Part shown: piece after piece, positions 23,159 through 32,437 of the stretch
How positions within the stretch are numbered: position 1 is the stretch's first letter
How the letters are laid out: each line of letters opens with the position of its first letter
Source: Methanobrevibacter sp.
GTDB lineage: Archaea > Methanobacteriota > Methanobacteria > Methanobacteriales > Methanobacteriaceae
DNA length: 32,437 bases
Assembly: GCF_030539875.1 (NCBI RefSeq)
Contig: NZ_JAUNXI010000022.1
Location: 1 to 32,437 of the forward strand
Direction: 5' to 3'
Translations under genes and position numbers: made by a program
The notes under the pieces: generated by a model
Database searches by the model: none
The model's input: only the letters and a program-made list of their open reading frames with translations
Told to the model about the DNA's origin: nothing

Positions 23159-23857
23159 ATGATTAAATTTGAACCAAAAGAGAGGATTAAATATTCGGAT
23201 ATTGATAAATATACTATTCAAGGTTTTATCTATTCGATTTTAGAAAATGATTCATTTTTTTATGATTATCATGATAATGTAGGGTTTAAATTTTTTAATT
23301 TTTCAAATATTTTTCCAGTTTCCGATTTTGAAAAAAATACCTTGAAAAAGTTAATAATATCATCGCCTAATGATAAATTGATTAAATCATTGTATAAACA
23401 ATTAAAAAATAAAACTTTTTTTCGATTGAAAAATTATAAGATGGAGTTATTAAAAATTGAATTGTTAACTAACAAAAATTGTTCAAAGTTTATCTCATCA
23501 ACACCTATCGTTTTATTTGAAGATAATAAAAATAATCAATATTATTCTTTTAAAAAAAATCCTGATTTTAATTTCTTTTTTGAAAGACTTAAAGATAATG
23601 CTATTAAAAAATATAATGCTTTTTATGGTTATGATTTTAATTTAGATTCGGAGTTATTTACAAACTTTGAATTTGGAAGGGAAGTTTCAATAAGATTAAC
23701 AAAGAATAATAATAAATTTATAGTTATTGGCAGTTTATGGAAAAATTTAGAATTTAATTTAACAACTCAAAATAAAGATTTTTATAATTTTTTATTTGAA
23801 AATGGGCTTGGTGAGAAAAATAGTTTAGGTTTTGGTTTTTTAAACTGTAGGAAGTGA
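23159..23857 (+). CDS. cas6: CRISPR endoribonuclease Cas6
   Basis: Cuts the repeat RNA to release crRNAs with an 8-base 5' handle. The 232-residue RAMP protein has a candidate catalytic His at H38 (YDYHDNVGFKF) in the usual N-terminal place and the C-terminal glycine-rich loop GLGEKNSLGFGFLN (about 216-229) typical of Cas6. It heads the type I-B operon and its stop is 5 bases before the apparent original cas8b start. Sequence is very rich in Lys, Asn and Phe, reflecting the low GC of the locus. Confidence 0.9.
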   Translation: MIKFEPKERIKYSDIDKYTIQGFIYSILENDSFFYDYHDNVGFKFFNFSNIFPVSDFEKNTLKKLIISSPNDKLIKSLYKQLKNKTFFRLKNYKMELLKIELLTNKNCSKFISSTPIVLFEDNKNNQYYSFKKNPDFNFFFERLKDNAIKKYNAFYGYDFNLDSELFTNFEFGREVSIRLTKNNNKFIVIGSLWKNLEFNLTTQNKDFYNFLFENGLGEKNSLGFGFLNCRK

Positions 23858-23862
23858 TAATT

Positions 23863-23933
23863 TTGCTTGATGCTTTATATAACTTGGGTAAATTATACAT
23901 TGAAAAGAAGGTTTAGATGAGATTGATGTACTT
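23863..23933 (+). other. Out-of-frame original N-terminus of cas8b
   Basis: A TTG at 23863 has an excellent GGAAGTGAT upstream and lies 5 bases after cas6. It reads LDALYNLGKLYIEKK and then hits a stop at 23914. In the neighbouring frame, from about 23907, the sequence reads EGLDEIDVLL directly into the main cas8b frame. One missing base around GAAAAGAAGG (23902-23911) would rejoin them as LGKLYIEK-EGLDEIDVLLDNKKIG, a natural Csh1-like N-terminus. Confidence 0.65.
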
Positions 23934-25649
23934 TTGGATAATAAAAAAATTGGTGCTGTAGTTTTAGTTGAATTTATTGAAGAATATGATGGAAACATTA
24001 TTTATAATAAAGTTTACCAAGAAGATTATGATTCAAAAAATAAAGTTAAATATCTTTATAAAAAAGGGTCATCTAGAGGAACTAATATTACTCCCTCTTG
24101 TTTATTAGGTAAGACATTAGAGACTACATTTAATATAAAATTTCTTAAATGGTTTGAAAATAATAAGGATAATGAATTTATATCAAAGTTAAATAATGAA
24201 ATTTTGGATAACAAAGAGAAGATTTTCAATGATTTAAGTATGGTTGTTGATAGTATTAATGTTAAGGGGAATACTCTTATTTCAATTGTTATCAATAATG
24301 GAAAAATTAATTATTTAAATGATTATGTTTACTTTAGAGATATTCTAATTAATGATTCATTAAAAAAATATTATGGTAATAAAAAGCAAATAAAAGGTGA
24401 AGGTGTTTGTTCTTTATGTGGTGAAAATAAAGAAGTATATGGATTAGTTTCTAGTTCCATAGGATTTGCATTTTCTACACCTGAAAAAAAGGGTAATGTT
24501 CCAGGATATGATATTAAAAATCAATGGAAATTATTACCAATTTGTGATGATTGTGCGATATATTTAAATGCTGGTAAAAATTTTGTTGAAGAATATTTAA
24601 ATTTCTCTGAATTTGGTTTAAACTATTTTGTTATTCCTAATTTCTTATTTGATTTGAAAAATAACTTTGATATTTTTTATAATAAACTAAAATTATTTAA
24701 AAATGATGATAAATTAGATTCAGCAGATTTGATTCATATTGAAAATAAATTGTTTAGAATTGTTAAAAGAATTGATGACATTGCTGAGTTTAAATTTCTA
24801 TTTTATCAATCGTCGAATAATGCTTTTGATATTTTAGCATTTGTTGAAAGTGTTATTCCTTCTTGGCTAAGTACTCTTTATGATGCTCAATTAAAAATAT
24901 ATGAGTATGATTTCTTCAAGGAAAAAAATCTTAAATTAATTTTTAATGAAAAACATGAAGGTAATTTCATAGAATTAATAAATAAAAATGAGAAAAAGTA
25001 TCCTTGTGCTACAAATAATTGGTATAAACGATTTTTAAGAGACTTTATAAATGATTTTTCTAGAAAACTCTACATTGATTCTGTTGTTAATGTTATTAGT
25101 AATAGGAAATTAGATTATAATTTTTTAATGTCAGTATTTATGGATAAAATAAGATTAAATTGGCGTAACGATGAAAAAAAGGCAATTAAAATTTCTGTTT
25201 TGAAATCATTAATGTTATTGTTATTATTTAATAATTTAAATTTAATTAAAGGAGGAAAAATTATGGATTCAAATAATGAGGAATTTAATATAGAATTAAT
25301 TTTAGACTCACCTTCTAAAAAAGCTACTTTTTTATTAGGTGTATTAACTAGAAAATTAATGAATATACAATATAATGAATTACATTCAACTCCATTTTAT
25401 AATAAACTGTGGGGACTGTCTTTAGATCAAAAAAAGATTCATAAATTATACCCCATGGTTATTAATAAACTACAGGAGTATAATGCAGGATATATGAGGA
25501 ATTTGGAAGAAGAAATTTCAAAGAATTTAGCAAAATCAGAAAATAATTGGGGATTAAATAGAGATGAAACAAGTTATTATTTTGTTTTAGGTTTTACTTT
25601 ACCTAATTATGATAAAAATGAAGAAAAAGGAGATGATTTAAGTGAATAG
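23934..25649 (+). CDS. cas8b: Type I-B Cascade large subunit Cas8b (Csh1)
   Basis: The large subunit of the type I-B interference complex, expected to read the PAM. The intact frame from TTG 23934 has 571 residues, with a zinc-binding pair CSLCGE (about 158-163) and CDDC (about 202-205) as in the Csh1 family, and a helical C-terminus. No Shine-Dalgarno serves TTG 23934, and about 24 N-terminal codons upstream are split off by an apparent one-base deletion (see 23863-23933). The last 128 codons also have their own start and encode Cas11. Overlaps the cas7 start by 8 bases. Confidence 0.85.
   Translation: MDNKKIGAVVLVEFIEEYDGNIIYNKVYQEDYDSKNKVKYLYKKGSSRGTNITPSCLLGKTLETTFNIKFLKWFENNKDNEFISKLNNEILDNKEKIFNDLSMVVDSINVKGNTLISIVINNGKINYLNDYVYFRDILINDSLKKYYGNKKQIKGEGVCSLCGENKEVYGLVSSSIGFAFSTPEKKGNVPGYDIKNQWKLLPICDDCAIYLNAGKNFVEEYLNFSEFGLNYFVIPNFLFDLKNNFDIFYNKLKLFKNDDKLDSADLIHIENKLFRIVKRIDDIAEFKFLFYQSSNNAFDILAFVESVIPSWLSTLYDAQLKIYEYDFFKEKNLKLIFNEKHEGNFIELINKNEKKYPCATNNWYKRFLRDFINDFSRKLYIDSVVNVISNRKLDYNFLMSVFMDKIRLNWRNDEKKAIKISVLKSLMLLLLFNNLNLIKGGKIMDSNNEEFNIELILDSPSKKATFLLGVLTRKLMNIQYNELHSTPFYNKLWGLSLDQKKIHKLYPMVINKLQEYNAGYMRNLEEEISKNLAKSENNWGLNRDETSYYFVLGFTLPNYDKNEEKGDDLSE
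25263..25649 (+). CDS. cas11: Internal cas11b small subunit within cas8b
   Basis: A perfect AAAGGAGG (25248-25255) stands 7 bases before an in-frame ATG at 25263, deep in cas8b. This is the strongest ribosome binding site of the operon and has no reason to be there unless it is used. It would yield a 128-residue helical protein (MDSNNEEFNIELILDSPSKK...). Type I-B, I-C and I-D systems are known to make their small subunit Cas11 in this way by internal initiation in cas8 or cas10d. No separate cas11 gene is present. Confidence 0.75.
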   Translation: MDSNNEEFNIELILDSPSKKATFLLGVLTRKLMNIQYNELHSTPFYNKLWGLSLDQKKIHKLYPMVINKLQEYNAGYMRNLEEEISKNLAKSENNWGLNRDETSYYFVLGFTLPNYDKNEEKGDDLSE

Positions 25650-26607
25650 GTCCGAAATTTTATTTTTATATGACATTGTAGATGCAAATCCTAATGGTGA
25701 TCCATTAGATGGTAATAAACCAAGATTGGACGAAGAAACAGAAATTAACATTGTGACTGATGTTAGATTTAAAAGAACAATACGTGATTATTTACATGAC
25801 TTTAAAAATCAAGGAATATTTATTAAAGAGATTCAAGATAAAAATGGCAATATTCAAGATGCAAAACAAAGAGCAAATGATTATTCATCAACTGAAGGAA
25901 AATATGATTCATTAGATGAAGCAAAAAATGACCTAAAAAATTGTATATTGAATCAGTGTATTGATGTTAGACTTTTTGGTGCAACAATACCTATTGATGT
26001 AAAAGTAGGTAAAACAAATAAAAGCAGTTCTGTAACTTTAACTGGGCCGGTTCAATTTAGAATGGGAAGATCTCTAAATAAAGTTGAAATTCAACACATT
26101 AAAGGTACTGGTGCTTTCGCATCTGGAAAAGGTAAAGATCAAAAAACTTTTAGAGAAGAATATATTTTACCATATTCTTTAATTGGTTTTTATGGTATTG
26201 TTAATGAAAATGCAGCTAAAGAAACCAAATTAAAAGAAGAAGATATTTATCTATTATTAGATGGGATTTGGAATGGAACTAAAAATTTAATTTCACGTTC
26301 TAAATTTGGTCAATCTCCTAGATGTTTAATTCAAATTGAATATAATGAAAATAACTTCTTTATTGGTGATTTGAATAATAAAATTTCTATTTCTCATGAT
26401 TTTGAAGATGACAAAAAATTAAGAAAAATTTCAGAGCTTGATGTTGATTTATCTGCGTTAATTAGTGCTATTGAAGAAAATAGAGATAAAATTAATAAAA
26501 TTAATTATAAATTTGACTCAGATATCGAATTTAAAGATTATTCTATGGCTGAACTAATAACTAAGTTTAAAGATTTTGGAATCGAAACATCTGAAATTAA
26601 TTTATGA
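25642..26607 (+). CDS. cas7: Cas7 (Csh2) type I-B backbone subunit
   Basis: The crRNA-binding backbone protein of Cascade, present in several copies per complex. The 321-residue RAMP protein starts SEILFLYDIVDANPNGDPLDGNKPRLDEET, the hallmark Csh2 N-terminus, and contains GPVQFRMGRSLNKVE (about 134-148) and SRSKFGQSPRCLIQIEY (about 219-235). The start is GTG 25642 with GGAGATGA 5 bases upstream. It overlaps cas8b by 8 bases. Confidence 0.93.
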   Translation: MNRSEILFLYDIVDANPNGDPLDGNKPRLDEETEINIVTDVRFKRTIRDYLHDFKNQGIFIKEIQDKNGNIQDAKQRANDYSSTEGKYDSLDEAKNDLKNCILNQCIDVRLFGATIPIDVKVGKTNKSSSVTLTGPVQFRMGRSLNKVEIQHIKGTGAFASGKGKDQKTFREEYILPYSLIGFYGIVNENAAKETKLKEEDIYLLLDGIWNGTKNLISRSKFGQSPRCLIQIEYNENNFFIGDLNNKISISHDFEDDKKLRKISELDVDLSALISAIEENRDKINKINYKFDSDIEFKDYSMAELITKFKDFGIETSEINL

Positions 26608-26617
26608 GGTTTAATAA

Positions 26618-27328
26618 ATGAATAAAAAACTATTAGCTTTTGATATATGGGGAGATTATGGCTATTTTAGAAGAGGTTACACTTCTACTTCTACAATTAC
26701 TTTTCCTTTCCCTTCAAGAACTACAATTTCTGGTTTAATTTCAGGAATATTGGGACTAGAAAAAGGTAGTTATCATGAGATTTTTAATGAAGATAATAGT
26801 AAAATAGGCTTGAGAATATTAAATCCAATTAAAAAAATTAATATTAATCTTAATTATATCAATACAAAAGGAGGTTTTTTATTATCTGATATTAATTCTA
26901 ATCCAAGAGTTCAAGTTCAAGCAGAGTTTTTAAAAGATGTAAAATATAGAATTTATGTTTCTTTAAATAATGATAGTTTAATGGAAGAATTATATTGTAA
27001 TTTAAGCGAACATAAATCAGTTTTCACTCCATGTTTAGGAATTTCTGAGTGTATTGCTGATTTTAAATTAGCTTATGATGATTTATTTGATTTGAATATG
27101 TCTAATGGGAATGATGTTAACATTGATTCAGTCATATTAAAGAATAAATTTGATTTAATTATTGAACCTGGAAAGAAATATGGGATAGTTAAAAGCCCGG
27201 GATTTATGAATTCAGATAGAATTGTTTCTAAATTCCTGGAATATTATTATGAAGAAAATGCTAATTCAATTAAAGTAAAAAATGGTGATTTTTATTTAAT
27301 TGGAGATGAAAAAATTGCATTATACTGA
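26618..27328 (+). CDS. cas5: Cas5 type I-B subunit
   Basis: Cas5 caps the crRNA 5' handle in Cascade. The 236-residue protein has the Cas5 start LLAFDIWGDYGYFRRGYTSTSTITFPFPSRTTISGLISGILG, in which the conserved Phe-Arg and the Pro-Ser-Arg-Thr stretch is typical of the type I-B/Hmari form. GAGGT precedes the ATG. Its last codons overlap the start of cas3. Confidence 0.9.
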   Translation: MNKKLLAFDIWGDYGYFRRGYTSTSTITFPFPSRTTISGLISGILGLEKGSYHEIFNEDNSKIGLRILNPIKKININLNYINTKGGFLLSDINSNPRVQVQAEFLKDVKYRIYVSLNNDSLMEELYCNLSEHKSVFTPCLGISECIADFKLAYDDLFDLNMSNGNDVNIDSVILKNKFDLIIEPGKKYGIVKSPGFMNSDRIVSKFLEYYYEENANSIKVKNGDFYLIGDEKIALY

Positions 27329-29681
27329 ATTAAAATCTCATCCAAATAAATTTTTAGAAGACCATTTGAAAAATGTTGCAGATTTTTCAAGATCTTCTTT
27401 TTATTCATTAACGTTTGATAATAACGTATTATTTGGTGATATTTCTTATATTATTGGTTTGTCTCATGATTTTGCTAAATCAACTTCTTTTTTTCAAGAT
27501 TATATTTTAACGGGTAAAAGTAATGAAAATAAATCTCATGGGTTTTTATCCGCAATATTTACATATTTTGCAGTATCCAAATATTTAAAAGAAAATAATG
27601 TTAGGTTTGATAAAAATTTATCTATAATTTCTTATATTGTTGTATTACATCATCACGGAAATATAAGAAATATTCCTACCTTAGATGATTATCATGATAT
27701 TAAATTTAATTCAAAAGTAATAAATAATCAAATTAATGATTTGGTTGATTTAAGTTATGATTTAAATTTATTTTATAATGAGTTTAATATTAATATTAAC
27801 GAATTTTTTGATAATATTGATAAAATTTCTGAAAGAATTTCTGATGATTTATTTGACTTTGAATATGATGCGACTTTTGATAATTATTTTTTAATTTTAC
27901 AATTTTATTCTGTTTTGTTGGATGCAGATAAAATGGATGCATCGGGAAGCAATTTTATAAAACGTGAATCTATTCCTAGTAATATTGTTGATGATTATAA
28001 AATAAATCATTCTTTTAATTTAGAGGGTATTAATAAAATACGTGAGGAAGCTTATTTGGAAGTTAATAAAAATATAATGAATTTGGATTTATCAAATAAA
28101 ATTTATTCAATTAATTTACCTACAGGGATTGGAAAAACATTAACAGGTCTTTCAAGTGTATTAAAATTGAGAAATAGAATCCAAGATGAAATGGGAATTA
28201 ATGCAAGAATTATTTATTCCTTACCTTTTTTATCCATTATTGATCAAAATGAAAATGTAATTAAATCTATTTTCAATGAAAATAATTTAAATGGAAATAA
28301 CTATTTTTTAAAACATAATTATCTTGCTGATATGAGCTATATTAAAGATGAGGATATGGAATATGAAATTTCAGATTCAAAAATTTTAATTGAGGGTTGG
28401 AATTCAGAATTTATTATAACAACATTTATTCAATTATTTTATAGTTTAATAGGTAATAAAAATAGTTTTTTAAGAAAGTTTCACAATATTGCTAATTCAA
28501 TTATCATTTTAGATGAGATTCAATCAATACCATATAAATTCTGGGGCATTATAAATCTAATACTTAAAAAATTAGCTCATGAATACAATTGTTGGATAAT
28601 ATTAATGACTGCAACACAGCCATTTATTTTCAATGAAACCGAGATTCTTTCATTAGTTGAAAACATAGACTATTATTTTAATAAATTTGATAGAATTGAG
28701 TATAATTTCATGTTAGAAAATATTTCACTTTTTGATTTTGCAGATGAATTAATTAACTTAATTGATAAAGAGAAAAATAAAGATATGATGGTTGTTTTAA
28801 ATACAATTGATTCTTCAGTTGAATTATATAAAATTATTAAAGAACATTTAAATGAAAATAATGAAGGATGTTATTTGGATAATGATGGTATTTTCCATGC
28901 TGGAAATGATATTAATCTAATTTATTTATCAACTAATATTATTCCAATCACCCGTTTAAATAAGATTAAAGCTATTAAAAATTCAGAAAAACAAAATATA
29001 ATTATTTCCACACAGTTAATTGAAGCCGGTGTGGATATTGATGTTGATATCGTTTATCGTGATTTTGCTCCTTTAGATTCTATCATTCAAACTGCGGGTA
29101 GATGTAATCGCAGTGGTAAGAAAGATAAAGGTTTGGTTAATGTAATTTCTTTGATAAATGAAAAAGGAAAACAATATTCTGGTTTTGTTTATCAAAAATT
29201 ATTACTCAATACCACTCAAGAAGTATTAAAAGGTTTAAATCAGTGTAGTGAAAAAGAATTTAATTTAAAAACTTCAAATAAATACTTTGAATTAATTTCC
29301 CAACGTAGTTTTGACGATGATAGACTTAAAAATATTTTGAATAATCTTAAATTTAATGATATTCCGTCTAATTTTAAATTAATTGAAACTAATCAAAATA
29401 AAATGGATGTTTTTGTTTGTGTTAATGAAGAAGCTGTAAATATATTTAATCAATATAAATTTATTCTTGAAAATTATTCAGGTTTTAAACGTAAAGAAAG
29501 ATTTTTAAAAATTAAAAGTAATTTTTATCAATATGTAATTTCTGTTGATGAGAAAAAATTTGGTTCAACAAATTTGTATAATGATGAAATCGGCGTGATA
29601 TATCCAAGTGATTTAAATAGAAAATATGAGTCTGATTTAGGATTTATTTCTTTAGAAAATGAAGAACCTATGATTTGGTAA
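27315..29681 (+). CDS. cas3: Cas3 HD nuclease-helicase
   Basis: The target-degrading enzyme of type I systems. An N-terminal HD nuclease domain holds GLSHDFAKSTSFFQDY (about 48-63) and VVLHHHGN (about 108-115); the superfamily 2 helicase follows with Walker A PTGIGKTLTG (near 269), DEIQ as the DExx box (near 400), MTATQP (about 429-434) and the motif VI region QTAGRCNRSGK. I set the start at TTG 27315 because GGAGATGA lies 5 bases upstream; TTG 27300 and ATG 27306 are also in frame. It overlaps the cas5 end by 14 bases. All core motifs look intact. Confidence 0.9.
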   Translation: MHYTELKSHPNKFLEDHLKNVADFSRSSFYSLTFDNNVLFGDISYIIGLSHDFAKSTSFFQDYILTGKSNENKSHGFLSAIFTYFAVSKYLKENNVRFDKNLSIISYIVVLHHHGNIRNIPTLDDYHDIKFNSKVINNQINDLVDLSYDLNLFYNEFNININEFFDNIDKISERISDDLFDFEYDATFDNYFLILQFYSVLLDADKMDASGSNFIKRESIPSNIVDDYKINHSFNLEGINKIREEAYLEVNKNIMNLDLSNKIYSINLPTGIGKTLTGLSSVLKLRNRIQDEMGINARIIYSLPFLSIIDQNENVIKSIFNENNLNGNNYFLKHNYLADMSYIKDEDMEYEISDSKILIEGWNSEFIITTFIQLFYSLIGNKNSFLRKFHNIANSIIILDEIQSIPYKFWGIINLILKKLAHEYNCWIILMTATQPFIFNETEILSLVENIDYYFNKFDRIEYNFMLENISLFDFADELINLIDKEKNKDMMVVLNTIDSSVELYKIIKEHLNENNEGCYLDNDGIFHAGNDINLIYLSTNIIPITRLNKIKAIKNSEKQNIIISTQLIEAGVDIDVDIVYRDFAPLDSIIQTAGRCNRSGKKDKGLVNVISLINEKGKQYSGFVYQKLLLNTTQEVLKGLNQCSEKEFNLKTSNKYFELISQRSFDDDRLKNILNNLKFNDIPSNFKLIETNQNKMDVFVCVNEEAVNIFNQYKFILENYSGFKRKERFLKIKSNFYQYVISVDEKKFGSTNLYNDEIGVIYPSDLNRKYESDLGFISLENEEPMIW

Positions 29682-29686
29682 TAATT

Positions 29687-30184
29687 ATGAAAAAAGAAGA
29701 TATAACTGGAGTTATGGTTCAATATTATGTGTTATGCAAGCGTGAATTATGGTTTTATATTAAACAGATTAATATGAATTATAACAATGATGATATTTCA
29801 ATTGGGAAGTTTCTTCATGAAACTTCTTATAAAAGAGAAAAAAAAGAAATTCGGCTTGACAACATGGTTTTTGATTTTATTAAACGGGGAGAAGAGTTAG
29901 TTATTTTTGAAATTAAAAAATCAAGTAAATTAACAATTGGTGCAAAATATCAATTATATTTTTATTTATATAATTTAAAATTAATACAAACCAATATAAA
30001 AGGTATTTTAGTATATCCTAAGGAAAGAAAAAAAGAAGAAATTTTTTTAACTAATGAAATTATTGATGAAATGGAAGAAATAATTAAAGGAATTTTGGAA
30101 GTGTCTAATTTGAATAGACCTCCTATTGCTAAAAATCAACCCTATTGCAAAAGATGTTCATTTTATGAATTATGTATGGTGTGA
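29687..30184 (+). CDS. cas4: Cas4 exonuclease
   Basis: Helps select and trim prespacers with Cas1-Cas2. The 165-residue protein has the four cluster cysteines C17 and, at the end, C154, C157 and C163 (YCKRCSFYELC), and a RecB-like core with FEIKKSSKLTIGAKYQLYFYLY (about 70-91, the Glu-x-Lys and Gln motifs). ATG 29687 follows the cas3 stop by 5 bases; a TTG at 29675 is a less likely start. Confidence 0.92.
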   Translation: MKKEDITGVMVQYYVLCKRELWFYIKQINMNYNNDDISIGKFLHETSYKREKKEIRLDNMVFDFIKRGEELVIFEIKKSSKLTIGAKYQLYFYLYNLKLIQTNIKGILVYPKERKKEEIFLTNEIIDEMEEIIKGILEVSNLNRPPIAKNQPYCKRCSFYELCMV

Positions 30185-30189
30185 GTGCT

Positions 30190-31161
30190 ATGAAAAATCC
30201 GTTATATATTACATCTCATGGTATTTTATCAAGAAAGGATAATACATTGTATTTTATAAATGAAACTGATAAAAAACAGATTCCGATTCATGCAATAAGC
30301 GAAATTAATTGTTTTGGAAAAGTTTCACTTAAATCTGGAGCTTCAACATTTTTAATGAAAGAAGGTATTGTTGTTAATTTTTTTAATAAATATGGTTTTT
30401 ATGAAGGATCATTATATCCAAAAATTAAATTAAATTCTGGTTTGGTTGTTGTTCGACAATCTGAACATTATTTAGATGTTAAAAAAAGACAATATATTGC
30501 AAAAGAATTTGTTGAAGGTATTAAACATAATATACTTAAAACAATGAAATATTATTCTAAAAAAGGTAAAAATCTTGATGAATATATTGAAAATATTGAA
30601 AAAGAAAATATTGATGGCGATATTGCACAAATGATGAGTTGCGAAGGTCGCATTTGGAATAATTTTTATCAAAGTTTTAATGTGATTTTAAGAAAATTTC
30701 CATTTAATAAACGCGAAATTAGACCACCTATAGATGAAATAAACTCTTTGTTGTCATTTGGTAATTCATTATTATATACGACTGTCTTATCTGAATTATA
30801 TCAAACTTATCTTCATCCATCTGTTAGTTTTTTACATGAGCCCTCAGAGAGAAGATTTTCTTTATCATTGGATTTCGCTGACATTTTTAAACCGATAATT
30901 GTTGATAGAACTATTTTTAAATTAGTCAATAATAATATGCTTAGTAAAAAACATTTTACATATGATGTTGGTTGTTTGTTAAATGATAAAGGAAAACAAA
31001 TTTTTATATCTGAATATCAAAAGAAGTTAGAAACAACAATAATGCATCAAACATTAAATAAAAAAGTTTCTTATAAGTATCTAATTAGGTTAGAAGGTTA
31101 TAAATTAATAAAACATTTTTTGAAGGATAAACAATATGAAAGTTTTAAAATGTGGTGGTAA
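30190..31161 (+). CDS. cas1: Cas1 integrase
   Basis: The spacer integrase. The 323-residue protein shows candidate catalytic residues E152 (SCEGRIWNNFY), H216 (SFLHEPSERRF) and an acidic residue in LSLDFADIFKP (D228 or D231). LYITSHGILSRKDNTLYF at the start is the beta-stranded N-terminal domain of the type I-B form. I start it at ATG 30190 because GGTGTGAGTG precedes it; an ATG at 30172 lies inside cas4. The stop overlaps the cas2 ATG. Confidence 0.94.
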   Translation: MKNPLYITSHGILSRKDNTLYFINETDKKQIPIHAISEINCFGKVSLKSGASTFLMKEGIVVNFFNKYGFYEGSLYPKIKLNSGLVVVRQSEHYLDVKKRQYIAKEFVEGIKHNILKTMKYYSKKGKNLDEYIENIEKENIDGDIAQMMSCEGRIWNNFYQSFNVILRKFPFNKREIRPPIDEINSLLSFGNSLLYTTVLSELYQTYLHPSVSFLHEPSERRFSLSLDFADIFKPIIVDRTIFKLVNNNMLSKKHFTYDVGCLLNDKGKQIFISEYQKKLETTIMHQTLNKKVSYKYLIRLEGYKLIKHFLKDKQYESFKMWW

Positions 31162-31421
31162 TGTATCTTGTAATTGTATATGATATTAATGTGGATCGAG
31201 TAAATAAAGTTCATAAATTTTTAAAAGCATATCTACATTGGCAACAAAATTCTGTTTTTGAGGGAAAAGTAACTAAATCTCAATATAATGAGATTATAGA
31301 TAAATTAGATAATTTAATTGATGAAGATGAAGATTCAATAATTATTTATAAATTTCCTTACAAATATCTTGATAAAAAAGTTTTAGGGATTGAAAAAAAT
31401 CCCATTTTATTTATTTTGTAA
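31161..31421 (+). CDS. cas2: Cas2
   Basis: The structural partner of Cas1 in spacer integration. The 86-residue ferredoxin-fold protein begins MYLVIVYDINVDRVNKVHKFL, with the typical Tyr-Asp pair, and has HWQQNSVFEGKVT (about 29-41) and the end strand IEKNPILFIL. ATG 31161 overlaps the cas1 stop; GTG codons at 31152 and 31155 are less likely starts. It is the last gene before the leader. Confidence 0.93.
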   Translation: MYLVIVYDINVDRVNKVHKFLKAYLHWQQNSVFEGKVTKSQYNEIIDKLDNLIDEDEDSIIIYKFPYKYLDKKVLGIEKNPILFIL

Positions 31422-31530
31422 TTAATGTCCACCTTTATAAATAGATAGTATTAATAATGGTGGACAATAAAATTATCTTATTAGAGAATTCTTAGTATTT
31501 CTTTTATTAGTTCTAAGGATTTTTCGACGC
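31422..31530 (+). promoter_or_regulatory. CRISPR leader with TATA box inside an inverted repeat
   Basis: About 109 bases between cas2 and the first repeat, on the side where new spacers are added given the repeat orientation. TTTATAAATAG (31434-31444) is a good TATA box for the pre-crRNA. It lies between the perfect 8-base arms TGTCCACC (31426-31433) and GGTGGACA (31459-31466), 33 bases apart, about three helical turns. The arms are the only GC-rich part of the leader. Confidence 0.7.
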
Positions 31531-32437
31531 ACTTTAAAATAGACTTAATAGTATGGAAATTGATTATGACACTACAATATTTTTGATTAATGAAATACTT
31601 TAAAATAGACTTAATAGTATGGAAATTCTTCTCGCAAAAATGGAAAAAATAAACAATGCTGCTTTAAAATAGACTTAATAGTATGGAAATATATATTTCA
31701 ACAACCTCAAAAAAGACCTACTTTTAAACTTTAAAATAGACTTAATAGTATGGAAATCGGAATTTGACCGCCCTGCATAGTGGAGCAGGCAGGCTTTAAA
31801 ATAGACTTAATAGTATGGAAATTGTCTTTTGGCATATCATCATTTGATATTATATTTACTTTAAAATAGACTTAATAGTATGGAAATTTGCCCCAAAGCC
31901 CCCTCAAACGGGCGCTACGTAAACTTTAAAATAGACTTAATAGTATGGAAATATTACATACAAATAAGCGAATCAAATTATGATTACTTACTTTAAAATA
32001 GACTTAATAGTATGGAAATTGAGTAAAGAAAACCGAACACTTGCTGACGAGATAACTTTAAAATAGACTTAATAGTATGGAAATGCCATTCAAGTATGGA
32101 TATTAATTCTTTTTCGGAAGCTTTAAAATAGACTTAATAGTATGGAAATCGTGTTAAAGCAAGATTACAATACATGGGTAAAAGACTTTAAAATAGACTT
32201 AATAGTATGGAAATGACTTTCAGCATTGTTTATTTTTTCCATTTTTGCGACTTTAAAATAGACTTAATAGTATGGAAATTAAGTTTGTATTTTTTCATAT
32301 TTAATATTCAAAAAAATCTTTAAAATAGACTTAATAGTATGGAAATATAAAAAAGTAGTTACAACCGTTCATGGAAATATGACTTTAAAATAGACTTAAT
32401 AGTATGGAAATAGAACTCAGTTAATATTATTAATTGT
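31531..32437 (+). CRISPR. Type I-B CRISPR array, 14 repeats visible, runs off the window
   Basis: Fourteen copies of a 29-base invariant repeat (starts CTTTAAAATAG, ends TTAATAGTATGGAAAT) start at 31531, 31597, 31661, 31728, 31793, 31858, 31923, 31990, 32055, 32120, 32185, 32250, 32317 and 32382 when the variable preceding base is counted. No copy is degenerate, so no array end is visible. The thirteen full spacers are 34-37 bases and the fourteenth is cut by the window edge. The repeat 3' end gives the crRNA handle ATGGAAAT, so the array reads on the plus strand. Spacers 2 and 11 overlap in reverse complement. Confidence 0.99.

Follow-up and report, generated by a model that had tools for sequence, protein, structure and literature searches.

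How does a CRISPR array come to hold one stretch of foreign DNA twice, in opposite orientations? The question is posed by two spacers of an array at the end of the window, a stretch of 32,437 nucleotides that makes up the whole of contig C22 of a 1.82-Mb methanogen genome.

The array and its complementary spacers

The window ends inside the CRISPR array (31532–32437, plus strand), of which it contains 14 repeats according to a repeat search of the organism's own genome. The contig end cuts the array inside spacer 14, and the array goes on in contig C31 of the same genome: read in reverse, C31 starts with the final 15 bases of C22, and joining the two rebuilds a 36-nt spacer 14 and yields an array of 29 spacers in total. 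The last repeat of the joined array is degenerate and is followed by other sequence. Spacers 1 to 14 on C22 are also named A1–A14 below, and the 15 spacers on C31 are B1–B15. The repeat is the 29-mer CTTTAAAATAGACTTAATAGTATGGAAAT, and a pattern search of the genome revealed that all 29 of the 29 full repeats are identical. Since the base preceding the repeat varies (A, G or T), it was assigned to the spacer and not to the repeat.

Spacer 2 (35 nt, 31627–31661, plus strand) and spacer 11 (36 nt, 32215–32250, plus strand) were each parsed between identical 29-nt repeats. A search for inverted repeats disclosed that the 30 leader-distal nucleotides of spacer 2 (31632–31661, plus strand) are 100% complementary to the 30 leader-distal nucleotides of spacer 11 (32221–32250, minus strand), the two halves of this inverted pair being separated by 559 nt. 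Each spacer also has a private leader-side end, with 5 nt more in spacer 2 and 6 nt more in spacer 11, and merged they give 41 bp of one target. The first-pass annotation had assigned both spacers to one target on opposite strands and had joined them to the same length of 41 bases, in agreement with these data. It had put the overlap at 28 bases, or 30 when the repeat base after each spacer was included; the overlap itself stands, while its proper length is 30 nt because the variable base belongs to the spacer.

An overlap of this length is far above chance. The longest exact end-to-end overlap between spacers of different arrays was 9 nt (202,707 pairs, a 25% sample), and the remaining spacer pairs of this array have at most 10 nt in common when the overlap of the two contig ends within spacer 14 is set aside. 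Judged by sequence, the pair is the same stretch of one invader stored twice, once for each DNA strand.

The leader lies between cas2 and the first repeat (31422–31531, plus strand). This placement at the cas2 end follows from a stretch conserved in three related arrays and from the degenerate repeat at the opposite end, and it makes spacer 2 the newer of the pair and spacer 11 the older, as had been proposed. The leader contains an 8-bp inverted repeat, TGTCCACC (31426–31433) and GGTGGACA (31459–31466), flanking a TATA-like TTTATAAATA (span 31426–31466), and its parts GTCC/CACC and GGTGGAC are largely retained in the three related leaders. Possible roles of the inverted repeat are a regulator site or an anchor in the leader for inserting new spacers.

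Upstream of the leader lies a complete type I-B operon, cas6-cas8b-cas7-cas5b-cas3-cas4-cas1-cas2 (23159–31421, plus strand), in which all genes are open and all eight of the eight Cas proteins match NCBIfam models at or above the curated cut-offs. In a search of genome contigs, the nearest named relative by Cas1 was an uncultured Methanobrevibacter sp. (89%), and the host is of Methanobrevibacter type. A second cas1 gene (342 aa) is located on another contig of the same genome (C29, 13135–13962; L271), near the contig end, and no array of the same repeat lies beside it.

PAM orientation, predicted target and recurrent invaders

The PAM of the repeat family was read from matches of 425 of its spacers against 1.6 Mb of collected DNA from viruses and proviruses of methanogens. 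Twenty distinct spacers matched at 80% identity or more, a level that returned 35 rows with the real sequences versus 2 in a reversed-sequence control. The 5' flank was TTA or TTG in 10 of these 20 spacers (background 5.5%, P = 2.6e-8), with T at position -3 in 15/20, T at -2 in 15/20 and A at -1 in 11/20; the 3' flank, taken as a control, showed TTA or TTG in 1/20. Half of the matches that gave the PAM carry neither trinucleotide, and as the matches are mostly diverged, their flanks may have drifted. Independent support comes from a related array (L280), where spacer 50 includes the 14 nt with which spacer 39 begins, with TTA directly before the shared seed. These observations give 5'-TTA/TTG on the leader side as the PAM of this Methanobrevibacter-type I-B repeat family. 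TTA is also listed as a type I-B PAM in Methanosarcina in a table of PMC8482600, likewise a methanogen system, although that host belongs to a different family and TTG is found among the matches here as well.

A PAM that maps to the leader-side end of the spacers means that the PAMs of spacers 2 and 11 face outward, in line with the first-pass annotation; in the predicted arrangement, 41 bp separate the two PAMs, which point in opposite directions. The target would thus read TTA-GACTTTCAGCATTGTTTATTTTTTCCATTTTTGCGAGAAGA-TAA. Whereas the PAM of the system was observed in the matches above, the two PAMs of this particular target are predicted, since the target sequence was not found.

The joined target had been proposed as a query for virus and plasmid collections, and no target was recovered from them. 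An exact 28-mer search of IMG/VR found no target, INPHARED likewise yielded none, and PLSDB gave weak partial matches only. The 30-mer with 3 mismatches allowed found no target in 139 genomes of the family, the window's own among them, nor in 24 whole virus records. One codon-degenerate pattern had no match, and a second returned 43 stretches, the best with 29/41 positions, which we judged to be chance. Exact halves of the target gave nothing in a first search and one match of 23/41 in a second, which was rejected, and the resemblance of spacer 2 to a stretch of L128 (25/35) was dismissed as low-complexity chance. The 41 bp with TTA at both ends are open in frame YLLAKMEKINNAESL, for which no related peptide was found; a peptide search with all open frames of the spacer pair scored no higher than shuffles.

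Other spacers disclosed an invader that the array has met repeatedly. Six of the 29 (A7, A10, B3, B4, B9 and B11) have matches in IMG/VR to a single family of viruses that encode MCM and are about 50–58 kb in size, with B11 at 34/36 and A10 at 33/36. A7 (31953–31990) and A10 (32150–32185) lie within the window, and B3, B4, B9 and B11 are located on C31 (L025). B9 falls on the Walker A motif of the same MCM gene that B11 matches, so two spacers lie within that gene. Whatever the source of the pair's own target, these six matches indicate that the array returns to one kind of invader. In a separate observation, large terminases sharing about 92–93% identity with the one on viral contig L071 occur in proviruses across many of the genomes in this genus (L089, L091, L095, L101, L103, L110, L112, L115, L121 and L123), which suggests that the L071-like proviruses form one widespread group.

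How the pair most likely arose

We consider it highly probable that the two spacers result from PAM-anchored captures on two separate occasions, each from a different strand of one invader site, with spacer 11 taken first. The type I-B system would have acquired spacer 11 from one strand and would later have returned to this 41-bp site to take spacer 2 from the opposite strand. A PAM of its own (5'-TTA or TTG), just beyond the 41 bp, would have anchored each capture. If both PAMs face outward and each capture extends about 36 nt inward, the two spacers would coincide in their distal 30 nt and keep their seed ends private, as seen in both spacers. The resulting two crRNAs would read both strands of one site from opposite ends. 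In favour of two captures, the operon is intact and includes cas4-cas1-cas2. Interference or priming guided by spacer 11 may have helped to bring in spacer 2.

The frequency of such overlaps requires no special mechanism. Among 22 array pieces with 18,073 within-array spacer pairs, we counted two exact overlaps of at least 15 nt: spacers 2 and 11 here (30 nt) and spacers 13 and 15 of L280 (25 nt). Random TTA-anchored protospacer pairs drawn on three virus records overlap by at least 15 nt with a probability of about 0.0007–0.0009, and plain resampling yields two overlaps when a common target is assumed for about 15% of pairs. The pair is therefore most likely a product of ordinary resampling of a familiar invader, with no new mechanism.

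A more specific course, contained within the two-capture explanation, is primed acquisition after escape, in which mutation of the invader altered the PAM or the initial 6 nt that spacer 11 reads, after which the primed system took spacer 2 from the other strand of that site. Spacer 2 is the newer and omits exactly the PAM and the first 6 nt of spacer 11, which speaks for this course. Priming by spacer 11 is plausible given the type I-B system of Haloarcula hispanica, where, as described in PMC4117759, new spacers may come from either strand of an invader that is already targeted. Priming was observed in that system, whereas the present array offers only its possible product, with no mismatch between spacers 2 and 11 and no known target variant. 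The first-pass annotation had named primed re-acquisition as one of two options; the array order and the position of the spacers agree with it, but uniform resampling with no priming accounts for the number of overlaps. We regard escape followed by priming as possible but tentative.

It is rather unlikely that both spacers go back to a single PAM, one of them through a prespacer whose capture missed the PAM by a few bases and which was then integrated in reverse. Flipping is documented in the type I-F system of Pectobacterium, where it affects <0.5% of spacers and is commoner after slipping (PMC5059440), and oppositely oriented spacer pairs are the topic of Shmakov 2014, on E. coli type I-E, as cited in PMC8406132. 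Such spacers are likewise complementary and oppositely oriented; here, in contrast, both ends are displaced by 5–6 nt with the PAM sides outward. A flipped prespacer should retain both of its ends in reverse, yet neither end coincides: they differ by 5 and 6 nt, both outward, so that the window of spacer 2 lies 5–6 nt off that of spacer 11. Most slips described so far do not exceed 3 nt (PMC5059440), and two PAM-anchored captures require no error at all. The flipped prespacer that had been offered as a second option is disfavoured on these grounds.

Two further accounts carry little weight. Inverted copies of the site in the invader, with spacers 2 and 11 taken from different places, would need an additional repeat of at least 30 bp where a single site is simpler, and we hold this to be very improbable. 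Misassembly of the array into a reversed copy, which had been raised as a way to refute the pairing, could be invoked because the array is split over two contigs, but the repeats on either side of both spacers are normally oriented, each spacer has its own unique 5–6 nt on the leader side, and the contig break inside spacer 14 is near neither of them, leaving this scarcely credible.

Overlap orientation and its meaning for the array

Both exact overlaps of at least 15 nt were opposite-strand and PAM-outward. Random overlaps split into about 49% same-strand, 26% PAM-outward and 25% PAM-inward, and finding both cases PAM-outward against about 26% expected has a chance of about 0.07, a figure that rests on two cases. 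The longest same-strand overlap was the 14 nt of spacers 39 and 50 of L280. Spacers 16 and 27 of L274 overlap with mismatches, again opposite-strand and PAM-outward; they may be a third, diverged pair and were left out of the overlap count.

One idea framed after the data were seen, and statistically weak, is that self-avoidance filters overlapping spacers within an array, in that only PAM-outward overlaps on opposite strands keep the seeds private. A same-strand or PAM-inward overlap would give the partner spacer both a PAM and a seed, and the array would be targeted by its own crRNA. We give this idea a low probability. Targeting of the array through the present pair was rejected, as the mismatches of crRNA 11 with spacer 2 fall at positions 1–6, with ATT in the place of the PAM, and those of crRNA 2 with spacer 11 at positions 2–5, with TTT in that place.

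A 30-bp RNA stem between spacers 2 and 11 is present in both the minimum-energy and the centroid folds; a functional role of the stem was rejected, the whole transcript folding hardly better than shuffles (z = -0.9). Elsewhere, whole runs of spacers are block-duplicated within arrays (L060, spacers 27–38 and 39–50; L077, spacers 42–43 and 44–45), and at L277 (G010:C11:3267-4545) two arrays of the same repeat run in opposite directions about 100 bp apart.

Read as two captures, the pair would record two encounters, separated in time, of one lineage with a single invader site. It allows 41 bp of an unsequenced element to be written down with predicted flanks. The survey provides a PAM (TTA/TTG) for the repeat family and a virus family that the array keeps matching. 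If the PAM-outward rule proves true in large spacer collections, it would mean that arrays are shaped by the avoidance of self-targeting.
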